From IMG/VR virus record IMGVR_UViG_3300010883_000677, positions 1 through 20,322 of that record: a stretch of DNA of 20,322 bases, one strand, 5' to 3'. Shown here piece by piece: positions 520-17,469 of this stretch. The stretch comes from a virus. Below the pieces are notes generated by a model. It saw only the letters and a program-made list of their open reading frames with translations. It was not told the DNA's origin and ran no database searches. How positions within the stretch are numbered: the stretch's first letter is position 1; the number at the start of each line of letters is the position of its first letter. The position numbers and the translations under genes were made by a program.

Positions 520-984
520 TCAGTTGTCAGAGTCTTCCATGAACTGGTCCAGCTTTGACTTGGATTCCACGGCAGCAAGTCCAAGTCTCAAGCGGGCCTC
601 TGGGCTCAGGCCAAGCCTGTCCTCCAGGGCTGGGAGCATGGCCTCAGTGGAGATGAGGAGCCTGGCTGCTGGGTGAGCAACGTCCTGGCCTTGAGAGCCT
701 TCAGTGATGAAGCCCTCTTTGTTCAGGAGGTCAATGAGGTGGTGGCGACGGATCAGGAGTGAGACATAGCGCTCAATGACATAGGAGTCAGAGGCTGGCT
801 TGTAGACCTCAGCACCAAAGCTCCAGAGGTCTTCCCAGAGCTGGGTTGCCTCAGTGCGCTGGTTGTAGGCCAAGGACTTCAGAGCTTCAGGCAGAGGAGG
901 AGTTTCTCTGGCCAAGATGTTGGGAGCCACCTTGACCACGGCAGCGTCCCTGGAGTTGCCCTGAGGATTTGCTGCTGGTCTCAT
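520..984 (-). CDS. terS: Terminase small subunit, P27 family
   Basis: This 154-residue protein is probably the DNA-recognition subunit of the packaging terminase. The pattern matches the P27 (Terminase_4) family: an LWEDLWSFG helix (about 50-57), a YVIERYVSLLIRRHHLIDLL helical block (68-87), a GFITEGSQGQDVAHPAARLL stretch (91-110) and the closing RLGLSPEARLRLGL motif (123-136). Length is normal for the family. The ATG at 984 has GAGGAAG in front of it. Upstream lie the DnaA-box-like repeat cluster and the HNH gene, and HNH plus small terminase is a standard packaging pair in HK97-like phages. The large terminase does not follow directly; a ribonucleotide reductase does. Confidence 0.82.
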   Translation of the reverse strand: MRPAANPQGNSRDAAVVKVAPNILARETPPLPEALKSLAYNQRTEATQLWEDLWSFGAEVYKPASDSYVIERYVSLLIRRHHLIDLLNKEGFITEGSQGQDVAHPAARLLISTEAMLPALEDRLGLSPEARLRLGLAAVESKSKLDQFMEDSDN

Positions 985-1115: not shown

Positions 1116-1169
1116 GATTCAGACTGTGTCTGTGAATATGGGGCGGGGGAGCCGAGGGGTCAAAGCCCC

Positions 1170-1547
1170 CTATGAGGCCCTTCCCCACACCCCTCCACCA
1201 CGAACAGTGGCAGCTCTGAGGGTTGCTTCCCTTGAGGTCTTGGCCTTGTGGCACTGGGTGCACAGGGTTTGGAGGTTGGTCTCAAGATCAGAGCCACCTC
1301 TGGAGAGCGGGACAACGTGATCAACTTGGCCTCCCCCTATGCCGAAGAAGCTGCAGCAATGATTGCACTGGCCTCCACCCTCTTTGTGGAGTAGCCTGCC
1401 CCTTCTTCGGGCTGCTCCATCTCCCGGAGCTGAAGCTCTCCTGGCCTTGGCCTGCTTGTCTTGATCAGCAGCATGTCCTGGGCATCTTGAAGCCCCACTG
1501 GGAGAGACAGCCAGACACCCTCCTATTGTGCAGGCCCTGGCTGTCAT
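1170..1547 (-). CDS. HNH endonuclease (packaging-associated type)
   Basis: A 125-residue HNH nuclease. An N-terminal zinc-like set (C6, C11, C22, H25) is followed by a basic linker, then the HNH core: CNHC at 61-64, VDHVVPL at 75-81 with the catalytic histidine in DH (76-77), N91, and CTQCHK at 96-101, giving the usual zinc knuckle plus the last H. The start is the ATG at 1547, preceded by AAAGGGACGCACC; an upstream in-frame ATG would run into the tRNA-like element and has no better ribosome site. HNH proteins beside a P27 small terminase commonly help the terminase cut phage DNA, so packaging is the likely role; a free-standing homing nuclease is the alternative. Confidence 0.82.
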   Translation of the reverse strand: MTARACTIGGCLAVSPSGASRCPGHAADQDKQAKARRASAPGDGAARRRGRLLHKEGGGQCNHCCSFFGIGGGQVDHVVPLSRGGSDLETNLQTLCTQCHKAKTSREATLRAATVRGGGVWGRAS

Positions 1548-1569: not shown

Positions 1570-1666
1570 TCCTTGGGCTGGAGTTGCACCAGCGTCCTCA
1601 CTGAGGCTTGCCCTGATCAAAGGGCAGCCTCTCAGTGACGCTCTACTGCTTTGAGCTACGCAAGGA
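1570..1666 (-). ncRNA. tRNA-like RNA with an overlong anticodon arm
   Basis: Read on the minus strand, this 97-nt segment has the parts of a tRNA in order. Acceptor: TCCTTGC (1666-1660) pairs with CCAAGGA (1576-1570), 6 of 7. The D-arm is GCTCAAAGCAGTAGAGC (1656-1640), with TA before it. A TCACT/AGTGA stem sits where the anticodon stem belongs, then a 4-nt variable loop GGAC, then the T-arm GCTGGTGCAACTCCAGC (1593-1577), a 5-bp stem with a 7-nt loop. Instead of a 7-nt anticodon loop there are 31 nt that fold on themselves, capped by GCCCT-TTGATC-AGGGC. One extra base sits between acceptor and D-arm, and the T-loop has G where T55 is usual. It lies 22 nt before the HNH start. A decoding tRNA is unlikely. 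Confidence 0.55.
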
Positions 1667-1812: not shown

Positions 1813-1820
1813 CCCTCTCA

Positions 1821-1852
1821 AGTAAGTATCCCCAGAATCTAGGAATCTGTGC
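1821..1852 (-). promoter_or_regulatory. Promoter-like element, copy A
   Basis: GCACAG (1852-1847), 16 bp, then GATACT (1830-1825) inside CTGGGGATACTTACTTGAG. It shares 23 identical bp with copy C. It begins right after the stop codon of the upstream gene and stands before the structured noncoding stretch and the HNH gene, 277 nt from that gene's ATG. See copies B, C and D for the shared pattern. Confidence 0.6.
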
Positions 1853-3798: not shown

Positions 3799-3964
3799 GG
3801 GGATCATCTCCCCAGCCTGCCCTGAGGGCCTGGAATAGGTCCTTGGTTGGGTTCATGGGCTTGGGCTCAGGGTCCAAGGGGATCACACCAGGAGTGGAGA
3901 AGAGCCTTGCGGGCTTGTCCTCATCGGTGAGGTGGTCATATGGCTTGCGCTTGTTGTTGGTCAT
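3785..3964 (-). CDS. Small protein of unknown function following the sigma factor
   Basis: A 59-residue hydrophilic, proline-rich protein starting MTNNKRKPYDHLTDEDKPARLF and ending in an acidic tail. The start at 3964 overlaps the sigma factor stop by 4 nt (ATGA) and has AAGGAGGATCAGC before it, a strong ribosome site. Tight coupling to the sigma gene could mean a linked role, for example a regulator of that factor, but no motif proves this. Confidence 0.62.
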   Translation of the reverse strand: MTNNKRKPYDHLTDEDKPARLFSTPGVIPLDPEPKPMNPTKDLFQALRAGWGDDPHDDV

Positions 3965-4701
3965 TGCTGATCCTCCTTGAGGATGCTTCTGAGGGCCTTG
4001 AGAGCCCTGTTGCGTATTCGGTTCACTCCTGAGCGGTCAATCCCGAGGGCCTGACCAACCTCATAGTCATTCATGCTATCACCATAAGTGAGCCCATAGG
4101 CCATCTCCAGGACCATTCTGTCCCTGGGAGCAAGGCATTCAAGCAGCTCCTCCAAGTCAGGCTGGTCCTCTGTGATGTTCGGAGCAATCCAGTCTTGCCT
4201 GGAGAACTGGCTGACGTTGAAATCACCATCAGCAGGCTCATTGTCACTGTCCTCACCACTCTCCATGGCATCCAGGCTCCAAGTATCTGTCACCAGGTTG
4301 TGGATGGCATCGAAGGTTAGGTGATCCATATCAGAGACCTCTCTGGCCTCCAGGATTGTGGCAGTGCTGGACACTGCTGACCAGTATTGCTGGAGCCTGG
4401 TCTTCGGGACGGTGGCTCCTTGGTAGTAGTCACCAGCCCTGTTGAGGATGGTGCCTTTGATGAGCAGGAAGACAAAGGTCTCAAAGGGATGGCCTTTGGA
4501 AGGGTCAAACCTCTGGAGAGCTTCAAGCACAGCCAGCCGGGCATCCTGGAGGAAGTCCTCAGGGTCCAGATGGGTGGTAGTTACCTTCTTCACTGCTGTC
4601 TTGATAAATGGGTCCACTCTGTCCATGATAGCAGCCTGAGCGGCGCTGTCTCCAGCTTTGGCAGAGAGGATGATGGATGTTGGAAGGTTGTCTGGATTCA
4701 T
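3961..4701 (-). CDS. Sigma70-family RNA polymerase sigma factor
   Basis: A 246-residue protein with two sigma domains. The region 2 signature is DPEDFLQDARLAVLEALQRF (46-65), followed by DPSKGHPFETFVFLLIKGTI (66-85), the core-binding and -10 recognition part. An acidic linker (about 140-165) follows. Region 4 is LAPRDRMVLEMAYGL (about 190-204) and a helix-turn-helix near YEVGQALGIDRSGVNRIRNRALKALR (about 213-238) that would read the -35. Region 1.1 and most of region 3 are missing, as in alternative or phage sigma factors. It would redirect host RNA polymerase to phage promoters; the GCACAG/GATACY elements in this window are candidate targets (inference). The ATG at 4701 has CAGGAG upstream. 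It lies 53 nt after the endolysin stop. Confidence 0.83.
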   Translation of the reverse strand: MNPDNLPTSIILSAKAGDSAAQAAIMDRVDPFIKTAVKKVTTTHLDPEDFLQDARLAVLEALQRFDPSKGHPFETFVFLLIKGTILNRAGDYYQGATVPKTRLQQYWSAVSSTATILEAREVSDMDHLTFDAIHNLVTDTWSLDAMESGEDSDNEPADGDFNVSQFSRQDWIAPNITEDQPDLEELLECLAPRDRMVLEMAYGLTYGDSMNDYEVGQALGIDRSGVNRIRNRALKALRSILKEDQQ

Positions 4702-9873: not shown

Positions 9874-12365
9874 CGTGCGCCTCCAAATATGCTGTCTGAT
9901 TGCGTTGTGGTCTCTGAATAGGTATCCCCAGCAGCCTGGGATTCTGTGCAAGTCTTGGTGTGAGTGAGGTGTATACCATCTGTCTTCTTGGTCCTCAAGG
10001 CACCTCGCTCCTCCATCTTGGCTGAGAAGGTTCTCCTGCCCCATCTCTCTTTGTCAGGAATCTCCTCCTCATCAGCCCAGGTCTCATAGGTCTTGAAGGC
10101 ATCAGTGAGAGTGACAGCCTCATCCCTGGTGCCTCTCACCAGAGGGCCATCAGGGTAGAAACCGGCCAGGTCATCAGAGGTGGCCTTGTAATCAGCAGTG
10201 GCAGCCACCACCACAGGAGGCTCCTTGAGCCCTGATGCGTACCACTCAGCAGCTCCCTGGACAGCCCAGGTGAGGATTCCCTGAGCCTCATCCTTGGTCA
10301 TGGTGGCAACCAGAGTGTGGTCTCTCTCCTCAGGCTTGAAGTATCGGGAGAATGGAATGAGCTTGACCCTGCGCCAGAGGCCTTCATCCTGACCTCTAAA
10401 GGAGGGCTTATGATTGGTGGCCAGGAGGATGAGGAAGGAGGGTCTGAACTCGAAGAACTCAGCCCTCATGAACCTGGCAGCAATGAGGTCCTGGCCTGTC
10501 ACCCTCTTCAAGGTGGCCTCAGCCATGGTGGTGCCAAGCTCACCCTCTGAGGCAAAGACCAGCCTGGAGCCTCTGAGGGCAGCCAGGTCATTTGGGATGC
10601 TGCCTCCTCCAGCCTTCTTCTCAAAGGTGGTGAATGGAGTTGTGCTGGATATGGAGGCAAAGACCCTGGAGAGAGTATCAGTGAAGACTGATTTGCCGTT
10701 GGCACCAAGACCCCAGAGGACAGCAAAGCATTGCTCAGAGGTCTCTCCAGTAATGCCATAGCCAATGAGCCTCTGGATGTAGGGAGGCAGCTTGGCCTGT
10801 CCGGGGAATATCTCAGAGAGGAACCGGTGCCAGCGCGGGCAGGAGGCCTCATCGTCATACGCAATGTCAAGCCTATGGGTGATTAGGTGGTCTCTGTCAT
10901 GAGGACCCAGCTCACCAGTCCTGAGGTTGATGGTGCCATTGGCCACAGTGATGAGATGGCCATGGCTATCAAAGGCCTGAGGATCAACATTGATCATGGC
11001 GGCCAGCTCTGTGAGGGCCTGGTCCAGCGTCCTGGTGGACTTCAGCCTCTTCACCATCTTCCTCTTGGTGGCGCGGAGTCTGGTAGCCATGTCAAAGGCG
11101 TCCTGGTCAGCCCTGTCCCTCTCCAGCTCCAGAATCTTGGCCTCGTACTCAGCCTCAGCATCCTCAGAGAGCTGGTCAGCAGCCTCATGAGCCGAGTTGC
11201 GTATGGTGTCCAGCGTGTCTCTCTCCCAGGCTCCAGCGTGGTAGAGGAAGAAGCCCAGGCCAGGACTGTGGAGGACATTGCCTTCAAGGAACTCCTGGAG
11301 GAAGATAGCCAGACCATGGTCAGTGGCATATTGCTGGAGGTCCTCATTGGCCTCCTTGTCCTCCTCGTTGGTGGCTTCCCTGGTAACAGCCTTGGCACCA
11401 GTGACAGCCTCCTGGAACTCCTGGACAAAGGTGTCCAGAGAGCCCTCATACCATTCACTGAGGTCATTGAACTGCTCAGGGATGGCTAGAGCAAAGACCT
11501 GGTAACCAGCAGGGATGAGGACATCAGCCAGGTCAGCATTGAACTGCCTGCCTGCGTCGTCATTATCGCCAGCAAGAACAAAGGGCCTGTCATCCATCTC
11601 AGCAAAGAGGACGACGGACTCAGCCACTGACTTGGCCAGAGAAGCTCCTCTGATAGCTATGGCGTCATAACCAGCAGCATGGGCAGTGAGGCCATCACCA
11701 GGACCCTCAGTGACCACAATGTTATCAAGGCCTGTGTAGGCCCCCATGAAGGCATGCTTGCTCCAAGAGCCCTCAGCAGGGTTGGATGGACCACTCCACT
11801 TGACCCTTGTGTCCTCCAAGGCTCTGGACTGGAAGCCTCTGGGGATGCCTCTAAAGTCCTTGAAAGGCACCACAACCCTAGGCACAACCTTGTAGGCCTG
11901 GCCAAGGAGGCCATAGGAGATGGAGCCATCATCAACACCAATGCCCAGGTCATTAGCCTGGTCCACACTGAGGCCAAACCTCTGCCAGAGGTAGTCATAA
12001 GCCTCACCACCAAGACGGGCATGAGAGGAGGCTTGTATGAGCTGCTTGGTCTGGTGAAGGTAAGCAGCCATGAGGGTCTGCTCCTCAGCACCAGCAGGCA
12101 TGGCACCAGAAGTGACAGCCAAAGGAGTGTCAGGCATATTGCGTGGCACCTCCATCAGGTCAGAGAAGGAGAGGCCCTTGGTGGCCAGCAGTGCGTCTGT
12201 CTTACATCCAGCTCGGCACTTGACAATGACCTTCAGCCCTGTCCCAAGAGCAACCCTGAGAGAAGCCTGGGAGTCATTGTGACCAGGGCAGTGGATGATC
12301 CAGCCAGTCCCCTCAAAGGTTGGGTTGGAGTCTCCAAGGGCAGTGAAGAGTTCAGTGAGCTTCAT
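9870..12365 (-). CDS. Primase-helicase: zinc, Toprim and superfamily 3 helicase domains
   Basis: An 831-residue fusion that would both prime and unwind phage DNA. N-terminus: C26-PG-H29 and C50-RAG-C54 form a CHC2-like zinc motif. The Toprim domain has E220 in TEGPGD and the DND pair at 267-269 in GDNDDAG. A helical, charged linker runs from about 320 to 450, then a D5_N-like region. The SF3 (D5/P4) helicase has Walker A GLGANGKS (552-559), a Walker B-like strand RLVFASE (601-607), sensor N651 in LLATNHKP and an arginine finger in GLWRRVKLIPF (662-672). The final part (about 760-831) resembles a winged-helix end. Start at the ATG at 12365, overlapping the methyltransferase stop. CpG-poor throughout. 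Confidence 0.92.
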   Translation of the reverse strand: MKLTELFTALGDSNPTFEGTGWIIHCPGHNDSQASLRVALGTGLKVIVKCRAGCKTDALLATKGLSFSDLMEVPRNMPDTPLAVTSGAMPAGAEEQTLMAAYLHQTKQLIQASSHARLGGEAYDYLWQRFGLSVDQANDLGIGVDDGSISYGLLGQAYKVVPRVVVPFKDFRGIPRGFQSRALEDTRVKWSGPSNPAEGSWSKHAFMGAYTGLDNIVVTEGPGDGLTAHAAGYDAIAIRGASLAKSVAESVVLFAEMDDRPFVLAGDNDDAGRQFNADLADVLIPAGYQVFALAIPEQFNDLSEWYEGSLDTFVQEFQEAVTGAKAVTREATNEEDKEANEDLQQYATDHGLAIFLQEFLEGNVLHSPGLGFFLYHAGAWERDTLDTIRNSAHEAADQLSEDAEAEYEAKILELERDRADQDAFDMATRLRATKRKMVKRLKSTRTLDQALTELAAMINVDPQAFDSHGHLITVANGTINLRTGELGPHDRDHLITHRLDIAYDDEASCPRWHRFLSEIFPGQAKLPPYIQRLIGYGITGETSEQCFAVLWGLGANGKSVFTDTLSRVFASISSTTPFTTFEKKAGGGSIPNDLAALRGSRLVFASEGELGTTMAEATLKRVTGQDLIAARFMRAEFFEFRPSFLILLATNHKPSFRGQDEGLWRRVKLIPFSRYFKPEERDHTLVATMTKDEAQGILTWAVQGAAEWYASGLKEPPVVVAATADYKATSDDLAGFYPDGPLVRGTRDEAVTLTDAFKTYETWADEEEIPDKERWGRRTFSAKMEERGALRTKKTDGIHLTHTKTCTESQAAGDTYSETTTQSDSIFGGAR
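9921..9949 (-). promoter_or_regulatory. Promoter-like element, copy B, inside the primase gene end
   Basis: GCACAG (9949-9944), 17 bp, GATACC (9926-9921), within CTGCTGGGGATACCTA. A CCCAG/CTGGG inverted repeat lies in the spacer. It overlaps the last codons of the primase-helicase and stands 47 nt before the membrane-protein ATG at 9873. Confidence 0.55.
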
Positions 12366-13445: not shown

Positions 13446-13624
13446 GACTTCGGGTTGGGCTTTGTTACTGGTGCCAGGATGAACCTAGCCAGCAGGGCCA
13501 GGACCAATGCCTCCCAGAAGGAGACAGAGACACCAACCATACCTAGACCAATCATCATGGCCCAACCATAGAGAGGCAGGGCAATGAGGGAGGCCACGAT
13601 GATGGCAGCAGCAAGCTTGGTCAT
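13442..13624 (-). CDS. Small two-helix membrane protein
   Basis: A 60-residue, very hydrophobic protein with two membrane segments (about 5-22 and 24-50, the second possibly split) and a short basic C-terminus KPNPKS. The start at 13624 and the stop at 13442 both overlap neighbours by 4 nt, so it is embedded in the coupled run. Role unknown; an accessory lysis or superinfection function is possible but nothing in the sequence decides it. Confidence 0.65.
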   Translation of the reverse strand: MTKLAAAIIVASLIALPLYGWAMMIGLGMVGVSVSFWEALVLALLARFILAPVTKPNPKS

Positions 13625-14313
13625 GCTGGGACTCCAACCTCCTCCATCACTTTGAGCTGTGGCTTGGTATAAGTGACTTCGGTTCCATCCTTGGCAGTGA
13701 ATTCAACTTGCTCCAAGCTCAGAACGGCATGGCATGGGCCAGAGGCCTGCCCCAAGGCATCCTCTGCTGCGTTGAAATTCTCGACGGCAGTCCAAGAGCC
13801 GCTGAAATAGCGAAACTTGCCTAGGGCCGGAGCATCAGCCAACCTGAAATATGCCTGGAGGCTGGCTGACGGACCAACACCATTGCTGGCATCCTGCTTG
13901 ATTTCCTTCAAGGACTTGGTGGAACCAGACCAAGGCTTGTCAGTTAGCTTGCCATCCTCATAGAGGTACTCACCGTCGGTCTCCACGATCTTCTTGCCCT
14001 TGTTGGACCAGAGGACCATTGAAGTCCGCACAGCACCAGGTTCCAGGATGATGTCAATGGTGTCAGTGGTGGTGAAGACCTGGAGAACTTCCTCTGTGGA
14101 GGTCTCCCATTCACTGACACCAGTGTCATCAGCACCCATGATGTCAGCCACCATGGCTGCCACGTCAGGGTCACCAGTGGTGATGCGGAACTGTCCCAGA
14201 CCTACAGGTAGACCAGACTTGGTCTGGTAGCCAGAGCGGAACCGCCCAACTACGTCATTGGACTCACCTTCCTCTTGTGTCGCATTGTTGAATGAGATGG
14301 ATTTGATTGTCAT
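13621..14313 (-). CDS. Gp3-like family protein (phiC31 Gp3 / recombination directionality factor-like)
   Basis: A 230-residue protein whose pattern I recognise from actinophage proteins annotated as Gp3-like: DVVGRFRSGYQ (20-30), a FRITTGDPDVAAMVADIMG stretch (about 42-60), WETSTEEVLQVFTTTDTIDI (about 69-88), RTSMVLWSNKGKKI (96-109), and a C-terminal half with repeated beta strands. In phiC31 the relative controls integrase direction; in virulent phages the family occurs without integrase, so the role here may differ. No integrase is in this window. The ATG at 14313 has AAGGAGACACAAGAC upstream, and promoter-like copy C lies 44 nt before it. Confidence 0.55.
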   Translation of the reverse strand: MTIKSISFNNATQEEGESNDVVGRFRSGYQTKSGLPVGLGQFRITTGDPDVAAMVADIMGADDTGVSEWETSTEEVLQVFTTTDTIDIILEPGAVRTSMVLWSNKGKKIVETDGEYLYEDGKLTDKPWSGSTKSLKEIKQDASNGVGPSASLQAYFRLADAPALGKFRYFSGSWTAVENFNAAEDALGQASGPCHAVLSLEQVEFTAKDGTEVTYTKPQLKVMEEVGVPA

Positions 14314-14357
14314 GTCTTGTGTCTCCTTGTTGGTGAGGGTCTCTGGACTCTCAAGTA

Positions 14358-14386
14358 AGTATCCCCAGAAAGGCTCTGGAGTGTGC
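14358..14386 (-). promoter_or_regulatory. Promoter-like element, copy C
   Basis: GCACAC (14386-14381), 17 bp, GATACT (14363-14358). A CCAGA/TCTGG inverted repeat occupies the spacer. It lies in the 119-nt gap between the diphosphohydrolase-like gene and the Gp3-like gene, 44 nt before the latter's ATG. Confidence 0.62.
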
Positions 14387-15757: not shown

Positions 15758-15776
15758 GAGTGTTCCTTTGTTGCGG

Positions 15777-15833
15777 TCAATTAGGTATCCCCAGAAGGGG
15801 TTGAGACTGTGCGCCAGCGTTGAGTTTATCCAT
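15777..15833 (-). CDS. Possible leaderless 18-codon peptide
   Basis: An ATG at 15833 stands exactly 7 nt after a good -10 (TATACA, 15846-15841), the spacing seen at the other mini-genes. The frame (MDKLNAGAQSQPLLGIPN) ends just before the RecB-like ribosome site and runs through copy D. The -35 is weak. It may be a regulatory peptide or a chance frame. Confidence 0.25.
   Translation of the reverse strand: MDKLNAGAQSQPLLGIPN
15784..15812 (-). promoter_or_regulatory. Promoter-like element, copy D
   Basis: GCACAG (15812-15807), 17 bp, GATACC (15789-15784). A CCCC-TTCT-GGGG hairpin sits in the spacer. It is 26 nt before the RecB-like ATG, which leaves room for a short leader with the AAAGGA ribosome site. 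Confidence 0.62.
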
Positions 15834-17420: not shown

Positions 17421-17469
17421 ACGCAAAGAGGGCCCTGCCTTCACTCTGGTGAGTGGTGACAGGGCCCTC
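17421..17469 (-). terminator. Terminator of the tail operon
   Basis: GAGGGCCCTG / CAGGGCCCTC (10 bp, 17428-17437 with 17460-17469) and an inner CACTC/GAGTG stem, followed on the minus strand by TTTGCGTTG. It lies 39 nt after the stop of the last tail-operon gene. The tail is only modestly T-rich, but the stem is very stable. Confidence 0.75.

Follow-up and report, generated by a model that had tools for sequence, protein, structure and literature searches.

A tRNA-like RNA with an extended anticodon arm at the tRNA position of phiC31-type phages in a virus contig, and its likely relatives among phage tRNA-like RNAs

Genes and features around the tRNA-like RNA

The window, which is the whole stretch of 20,322 nt analysed here, is a 20-kb virus contig. 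A tRNA-like RNA is read from its minus strand, and the features of this RNA and of its surroundings are listed in Table 1. In the direction of reading, the promoter-like repeat (1837-1815), the tRNA-like RNA, an HNH endonuclease gene (ATG at 1547), cos and the gene for the terminase small subunit (TerS) follow one another. The order in phiC31 is late promoter, tRNA-Thr, gp29, HNH, cos and TerS. Because the order in the window matches this phiC31-type order, the RNA occupies the tRNA slot. The end of contig L018 resembles the end of phiC31 DNA before TerS, so that position 1138 of the window is most probably cos, as judged from this resemblance. The distance from cos to TerS is 154 nt in the window, as measured from the end of L018, and 144 nt in phiC31. 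The initial annotation had placed the RNA directly before an HNH gene and behind a promoter-like repeat. The first placement is correct, and the RNA adjoins the HNH gene because the locus has the phiC31-type cos layout. The repeat is real, as an exact copy of TTCTGGGGATACTTACTTGAGAG and a variant are also present in the window.

Table 1. Positions of the tRNA-like RNA, its parts and neighbouring features in the window
Feature	Position	Strand	Remarks
tRNA-like RNA with extended anticodon arm	1570..1666	-	97 nt; no encoded CCA, next base T
Acceptor stem, 5' strand TCCTTGC	1660..1666	-	pairs with 1570-1576, 6/7
D arm GCTC-AAAGCAGTA-GAGC	1640..1656	-	stem 4/4; loop without the usual GG
Extended anticodon arm, TCACT/AGTGA and 11 further pairs	1598..1638	-	loop TTGATC; no anticodon loop
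T arm GCTGG-TGCAACT-CCAGC	1577..1593	-	stem 5/5; U55 of the loop replaced by G
Acceptor stem, 3' strand CCAAGGA	1570..1576	-	
Promoter-like 23-mer TTCTGGGGATACTTACTTGAGAG	1815..1837	-	about 150 nt upstream of the tRNA-like RNA
Promoter-like TTCTGGGGATACTTACTTGAGAG, exact copy	14348-14370	-	upstream of the gene starting at 14313
Promoter-like TTCTGGGGATACTTACTTGAGAG, variant	~15775-15796	-	upstream of an exonuclease gene
HNH endonuclease gene	1170..1547	-	ATG 22 nt past the RNA; AAAGGGA is the likely ribosome site
Probable cos site	1138..1139		99.7% identical contig L018 ends here
Terminase small subunit (TerS)	520..984	-	only named relatives are phiC31-type Streptomyces phages

Several other features of the window are recorded. 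In addition to the repeated promoter-like elements, the window encodes a sigma factor, at 3961-4701. Four DnaA-box-like repeats of the GGTTGTCCACAGG type, three of them at 11-bp spacing, are located between cos and TerS (1012-1078) and are possibly terminase-binding or origin sites. Past TerS, where TerL is expected, the minus strand at 1-389 contains the first part of a gene for a ribonucleotide reductase that depends on adenosylcobalamin (RTPR). An inverted repeat with 20-nt arms that are 90% complementary lies at 14049-14131, within the gene 13621-14313, and a hairpin with 19-nt arms and a 4-nt loop lies at 17428-17469.

Fold of the RNA and its detection

Direct reading of the minus strand from 1666 to 1570 gives 5' TCCTTGC-G-TA-GCTC-AAAGCAGTA-GAGC-G-TCACT-(31 nt)-AGTGA-GGAC-GCTGG-TGCAACT-CCAGC-CCAAGGA 3'. 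When this sequence is read and folded, the acceptor (6/7), D (4/4), anticodon (5/5) and T (5/5) stems are formed at the spacing of a tRNA, with a C.C mismatch as the seventh acceptor pair and a variable loop of 4 nt (GGAC). A decoding tRNA has a 7-nt anticodon loop. The RNA does not have such a loop with U33 and a purine at position 37, and 31 nt are enclosed by the TCACT/AGTGA strands instead. These 31 nt form 11 additional pairs, so that the arm contains 16 pairs in total, interrupted by GA and A bulges and closed by the terminal loop TTGATC. Thus, the coordinates, stem counts and 31-nt replacement of the anticodon loop given by the initial annotation agree with both direct reading and folding. 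A perfect 5-bp anticodon stem that is located 3-6 nt from the T stem and encloses more than 7 nt is present. The RNA deviates from a tRNA at other positions as well, which the initial annotation did not mention. It contains one extra base ahead of T8, and neither the G18-U55 nor the G19-C56 elbow contact can be made, because the D loop AAAGCAGTA lacks GG and the T loop is TGCAACT, with TGC at the position of T54-T55-C56.

The RNA is not readily detected by standard programs. ARAGORN at default settings calls neither a tRNA nor a tmRNA in the window, and the Rfam tRNA model (RF00005) does not match the RNA in the window or in 401 bases. ARAGORN with introns allowed and a relaxed score (60%), which had been proposed as a check, does list the element, as c[1568,1666], but amid many false calls. 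It labels the RNA tRNA-Gln(ttg), as would be expected if the RNA were a tRNA that contains a small intron or needs editing and decodes once the insert is removed. This explanation is highly improbable, because neither T33 nor a purine at position 37 stands beside the stem, because the extended-arm elements described below share no consistent anticodon or splice site, and because small protein-spliced tRNA introns are not known in bacteria.

A covariance model (R1) was trained on 21 other extended-arm tRNA-like sequences, with the element of the window left out. R1 matches the window at 1666-1570 on the minus strand over its full length (1-87) with 35.8 bits and an E value of 4.4e-9, and the next-best place in the window scores 8.4 bits. 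Because this score rests mainly on the tRNA core, it shows a tRNA origin of the element and not homology of its insert. A rule-based search of both strands, which uses an ad hoc, hand-made criterion fitted to this element, gives one match in the window, as compared with one in 13,605 random sequences. These sequences were generated by a first-order Markov model with the length (about 20 kb) and dinucleotide make-up of the window.

The folding-energy z-score of the RNA is -3.3. The cloverleaf lies 0.9 kcal/mol above the minimum-energy fold, with the D region paired with the T region (about 2% of the ensemble). This advantage in the nearest-neighbour model speaks for a long, imperfect single hairpin unrelated to tRNA, formed by pairing between the D and T regions, with a resemblance to tRNA that arose by chance. 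There is, however, very little probability left for this explanation, because the tRNA consensus letters TAGCTCA..GTAGAGCG are present, because the R1 match and the rarity of rule-based matches in random sequences are not expected by chance, and because the element is located in a syntenic tRNA slot.

A close homologue of the element was found neither by a DNA search in phages, nor by a search of IMG/VR for the exact D-arm pattern, nor by look-ups with HNH, DUF7246, DUF932 and primase. Likewise, no homologue with a similar arm was found in the searched phage DNA and IMG/VR. A second degenerate tRNA considered at about 1750-1670 on the minus strand (TAGCCAAGTGGTTGAA) was rejected, because it gives no R1 match and leaves too little space for a T arm.

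Extended-arm tRNA-like RNAs in other phages

A search of IMG/VR with a TerS profile yielded 58 loci and opened the family after the other look-ups had given none. The slot before the HNH gene contains tRNAs in Euratis, Heather, Shawty, Vash, TG1, Samora, Lilbooboo and RemusLoopin, and the slot tRNAs of the phiC31 relatives are tRNA-Thr, tRNA-Lys or tRNA-Asp. The tRNAs at the HNH-cos end (tRNA-Thr of phiC31, Euratis and Vash; tRNA-Lys of Heather) resemble the RNA of the window in position, orientation and tRNA core, and that of phiC31 has a promoter upstream, like the promoter-like repeat of the window. However, these tRNAs are able to decode with an anticodon loop of 7 nt, whereas the RNA of the window has a self-paired 31-nt insert. 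Extended-arm tRNA-like RNAs occupy the same slot in ten IMG/VR relatives (L019, L022, L031, L033, L034, L036, L065, L066, L070 and L073). Their anticodon regions are 31 to 49 nt long, as compared with 23 nt in an ordinary tRNA, whereas the rest of the core (acceptor, D arm and T arm) is intact, and ordinary tRNAs stand beside them. A 3' CCA is encoded in L031, L033 and L036. AbbeyMikolon carries two extended-arm genes, annotated as 'tRNA-OTHER', ahead of its HNH gene.

Other variants are found in this slot. The element at L073 1973-2041 has a shortened arm with a CCCC-GGAA-GGGG tetraloop, and those at L034 2067-2137, L036 1834-1903 and L041 2231-2299 have shortened or non-U33 anticodon loops; these four are non-decoding by shortening. 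In L067, L071, L074 and L075, genes called Leu(UAG) are without the long variable arm that tRNA-Leu has in bacteria. An unannotated remnant or variant follows tRNA-Thr in Euratis (L008, about 10843-10946), in which the T arm and acceptor are kept and the D arm is gone. In Arthrobacter relatives identified by primase (Soondubu), there is a gap ahead of the HNH gene in which no tRNA is called.

A second group of these RNAs is found in phiC31 itself. An unannotated tRNA core with an extended arm is located between gp13 and gp14 (31424-31511), and the same element is found at the same place in Vash, Euratis, Lilbooboo, Samora, RemusLoopin, Sebastisaurus and Heather, as well as in two IMG/VR phages and one Streptomyces genome. 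It is annotated only in Lilbooboo, as tRNA-Gly, and is present in a shortened version in phiBT1. In an alignment of 11 sequences, 98% of the cells pair, and seven pairs change on both sides, three of which (columns 26-59, 28-57 and 40-49) are located within the extended arm. The covariation score is reached by none of 500 shuffles. In Samora, the GNRA tetraloop is swapped together with its stem for CCCC-UUCG-GGGG. The covarying pairs and this swap argue that the gp13/gp14 pattern is, as read from the alignment, that of a maintained structure and not of a pseudogene. The gp13/gp14 element is similar to the RNA of the window in that a structured hairpin replaces the anticodon loop, but its genome position is different and its arm sequence is unrelated. 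In addition, its elbow nucleotides are intact and the members scanned with the Rfam tRNA model score 42 to 54 bits, whereas the RNA of the window has lost the elbow and is not matched.

These elements bear on the explanation that the RNA of the window is processing punctuation. According to this explanation, a tRNA shape heads the right-end transcript, so that RNase P and 3' tRNase cut the messenger just before the HNH and packaging genes, and the anticodon arm is free to vary. The promoter-like repeat and the HNH start on the two sides of the RNA, the equivalent arrangement in phiC31, where the late promoter is annotated, and the retention of the acceptor-T stack are consistent with it. It leaves unexplained, however, both the conserved, covarying extended arm of the phiC31 family and the presence of extended-arm copies between gp13 and gp14, and ordinary tRNAs would serve equally well. 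Punctuation is therefore considered improbable.

The design was also surveyed with a pattern that consists of a class I D arm, a gap too long for an ordinary tRNA, and a T arm. It matches at least 120 stretches of IMG/VR, some of which are class II tRNAs, and is found in 14 of 295 Streptomyces genomes; the reversed pattern gives no match in these 295 genomes. In 28 of the 91 non-canonical matches listed, a perfect anticodon stem of 5 bp stands at the spacing of a tRNA, as compared with 7.1 +/- 2.5 in shuffles, and most of these 28 have acceptors with 6 or 7 pairs. R1 matches of at least 79 nt are found in 22 of 35 phiC31-type records, a count that includes several training members and several mutually related records, and in which G417 could be a class II tRNA. 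Imperfect (4/5) anticodon stems were dropped as evidence, because shuffles give 43 of 91. Class II tRNAs among the long matches (e.g. L114, L119, L124 and the Leu tRNA in L045) were not counted as evidence; the classifier removed only five of them, so that some remain in the loose counts. Palindromic loops for dimerisation in all arms were also considered and dropped, because they are inconsistent across members.

Another family of extended-arm tRNA-like RNAs (TAGCTCAGTCAGGAAGAGC...) is found in accessory regions of Streptomyces, at L218 1491-1587, L220 1494-1589, L224 1494-1590 and L219 1494-1587. In L218, L220 and L224, the element is located about 220 nt upstream of a gene for a PCMT-type methyltransferase related to ATP-grasp peptide maturase systems, and in L219 it adjoins a PCMT-type methyltransferase gene as well. 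A non-decoding tRNA of this type beside a peptide-modifying enzyme is worth separate study.

Possible role of the non-decoding tRNA-like RNAs

The initial annotation had offered two readings, a tRNA mimic that is unable to decode and a decayed tRNA with an insertion. The former is supported by the presence of a tRNA core in the tRNA slot of relatives, and by the recurrence of the design in these relatives with conserved cores and covarying arms. The latter is made less likely for the class by the extended arms that are found on intact cores. It may still apply to the copy in the window, which would then be an ordinary slot tRNA whose anticodon loop received a palindromic insert and whose sequence has since been drifting. 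The loss of the D-loop GG and of U55, the acceptor mismatch, the extra base, the failure of the Rfam model to match this copy, and the presence of remnant tRNAs in the slot of other genomes (for instance that of Euratis, which follows tRNA-Thr and retains the T arm and acceptor) point to such decay. Nevertheless, 31 of 32 pairs hold in this copy, its changes are located at loop positions only, and relatives show the same design on cores that are intact, with arms that covary, so that decay appears rather unlikely. The copy in the window is the weakest member examined, as its elbow contacts are lost and its arm has no homologue, and the evidence for the class is stronger than that for this copy. 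On balance, the element is probably a maintained, non-decoding tRNA mimic, and comparison of the sequences places it, most likely, as a divergent copy among a class of such mimics in phages.

An acceptor-T stack of the kind retained in this RNA is recognised by RNase P and 3' tRNase. The acceptor, D and T arms, kept as helices, would form the end that is bound by tRNA-processing and tRNA-binding proteins, and the hairpin would stand in place of the codon-reading loop. The phage would transcribe the RNA at the right end of its genome, from the phiC31-type tRNA position, and host RNase P and 3' tRNase would excise it. It may then be used as a decoy or uncleavable competitor for tRNA-binding host factors, above all for defence nucleases that target tRNAs. 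Anticodon nucleases cut in the region that is rebuilt here, and this region varies strongly between phages around a constant core, as would fit an arms race. The decoy for anticodon nucleases put forward in the initial annotation is thus plausible, but as a mechanism by itself a decoy that acts on host factors targeting tRNAs is a tentative proposal, made by analogy.

tmRNA and the tRNA-like structures of plant viruses have the shape of a tRNA without decoding and act outside translation. The RNA of the window differs from tmRNA in that it has no tag reading frame, its insert is only 31 nt long and ARAGORN does not call it as one; it differs from the plant-virus structures in that it is not the 3' end of a genome and only its anticodon arm is rebuilt. 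Other tRNA-shaped RNAs encoded by phages, such as tRNA-Tyr of T5 and SP15 against retron-Eco7 and tRNA-Lys against PrrC170, are proposed to counter defences that cleave tRNAs. They decode and replace the cleaved tRNA (PMC11555353), whereas the RNA of the window cannot decode. Phage tRNAs that counter tRNA-cleaving defences have intact anticodons (PMC11555353), and such tRNAs also appear to be the subject of PMC10264068. In the 2024 paper on retron-Eco7, the rescuing phage tRNA needed its anticodon (PMC11555353), which indicates replacement and not a decoy, so that a decoy would represent a different mode. A literature search with partial coverage gave no description of extended-arm phage tRNA-like RNAs, which is not proof of novelty. 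It is conceivable, but doubtful at present, that such RNAs, including those of phiC31 and the window, are widespread, essentially unrecognised phage tRNA mimics that are handled as tRNAs, do not decode, carry a fast-changing arm hairpin and act against tRNA-targeting defences of the host.

Because tRNA gene callers mislabel such RNAs, as tRNA-Gly or 'tRNA-OTHER', counts of phage tRNA repertoires include them unnoticed. Phage tRNAs are usually accounted for either by codon supply or by the replacement of tRNAs that are cleaved by defences. Non-decoding tRNAs that keep the end by which tRNAs are handled, and carry a non-decoding arm with compensatory evolution, fit neither account. Because phiC31 is among the best-studied actinophages and its copy can be deleted or probed with existing tools, the question of what phage tRNAs are for becomes directly testable in this phage. 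These results suggest that phages use tRNA-like RNAs for something besides translation.
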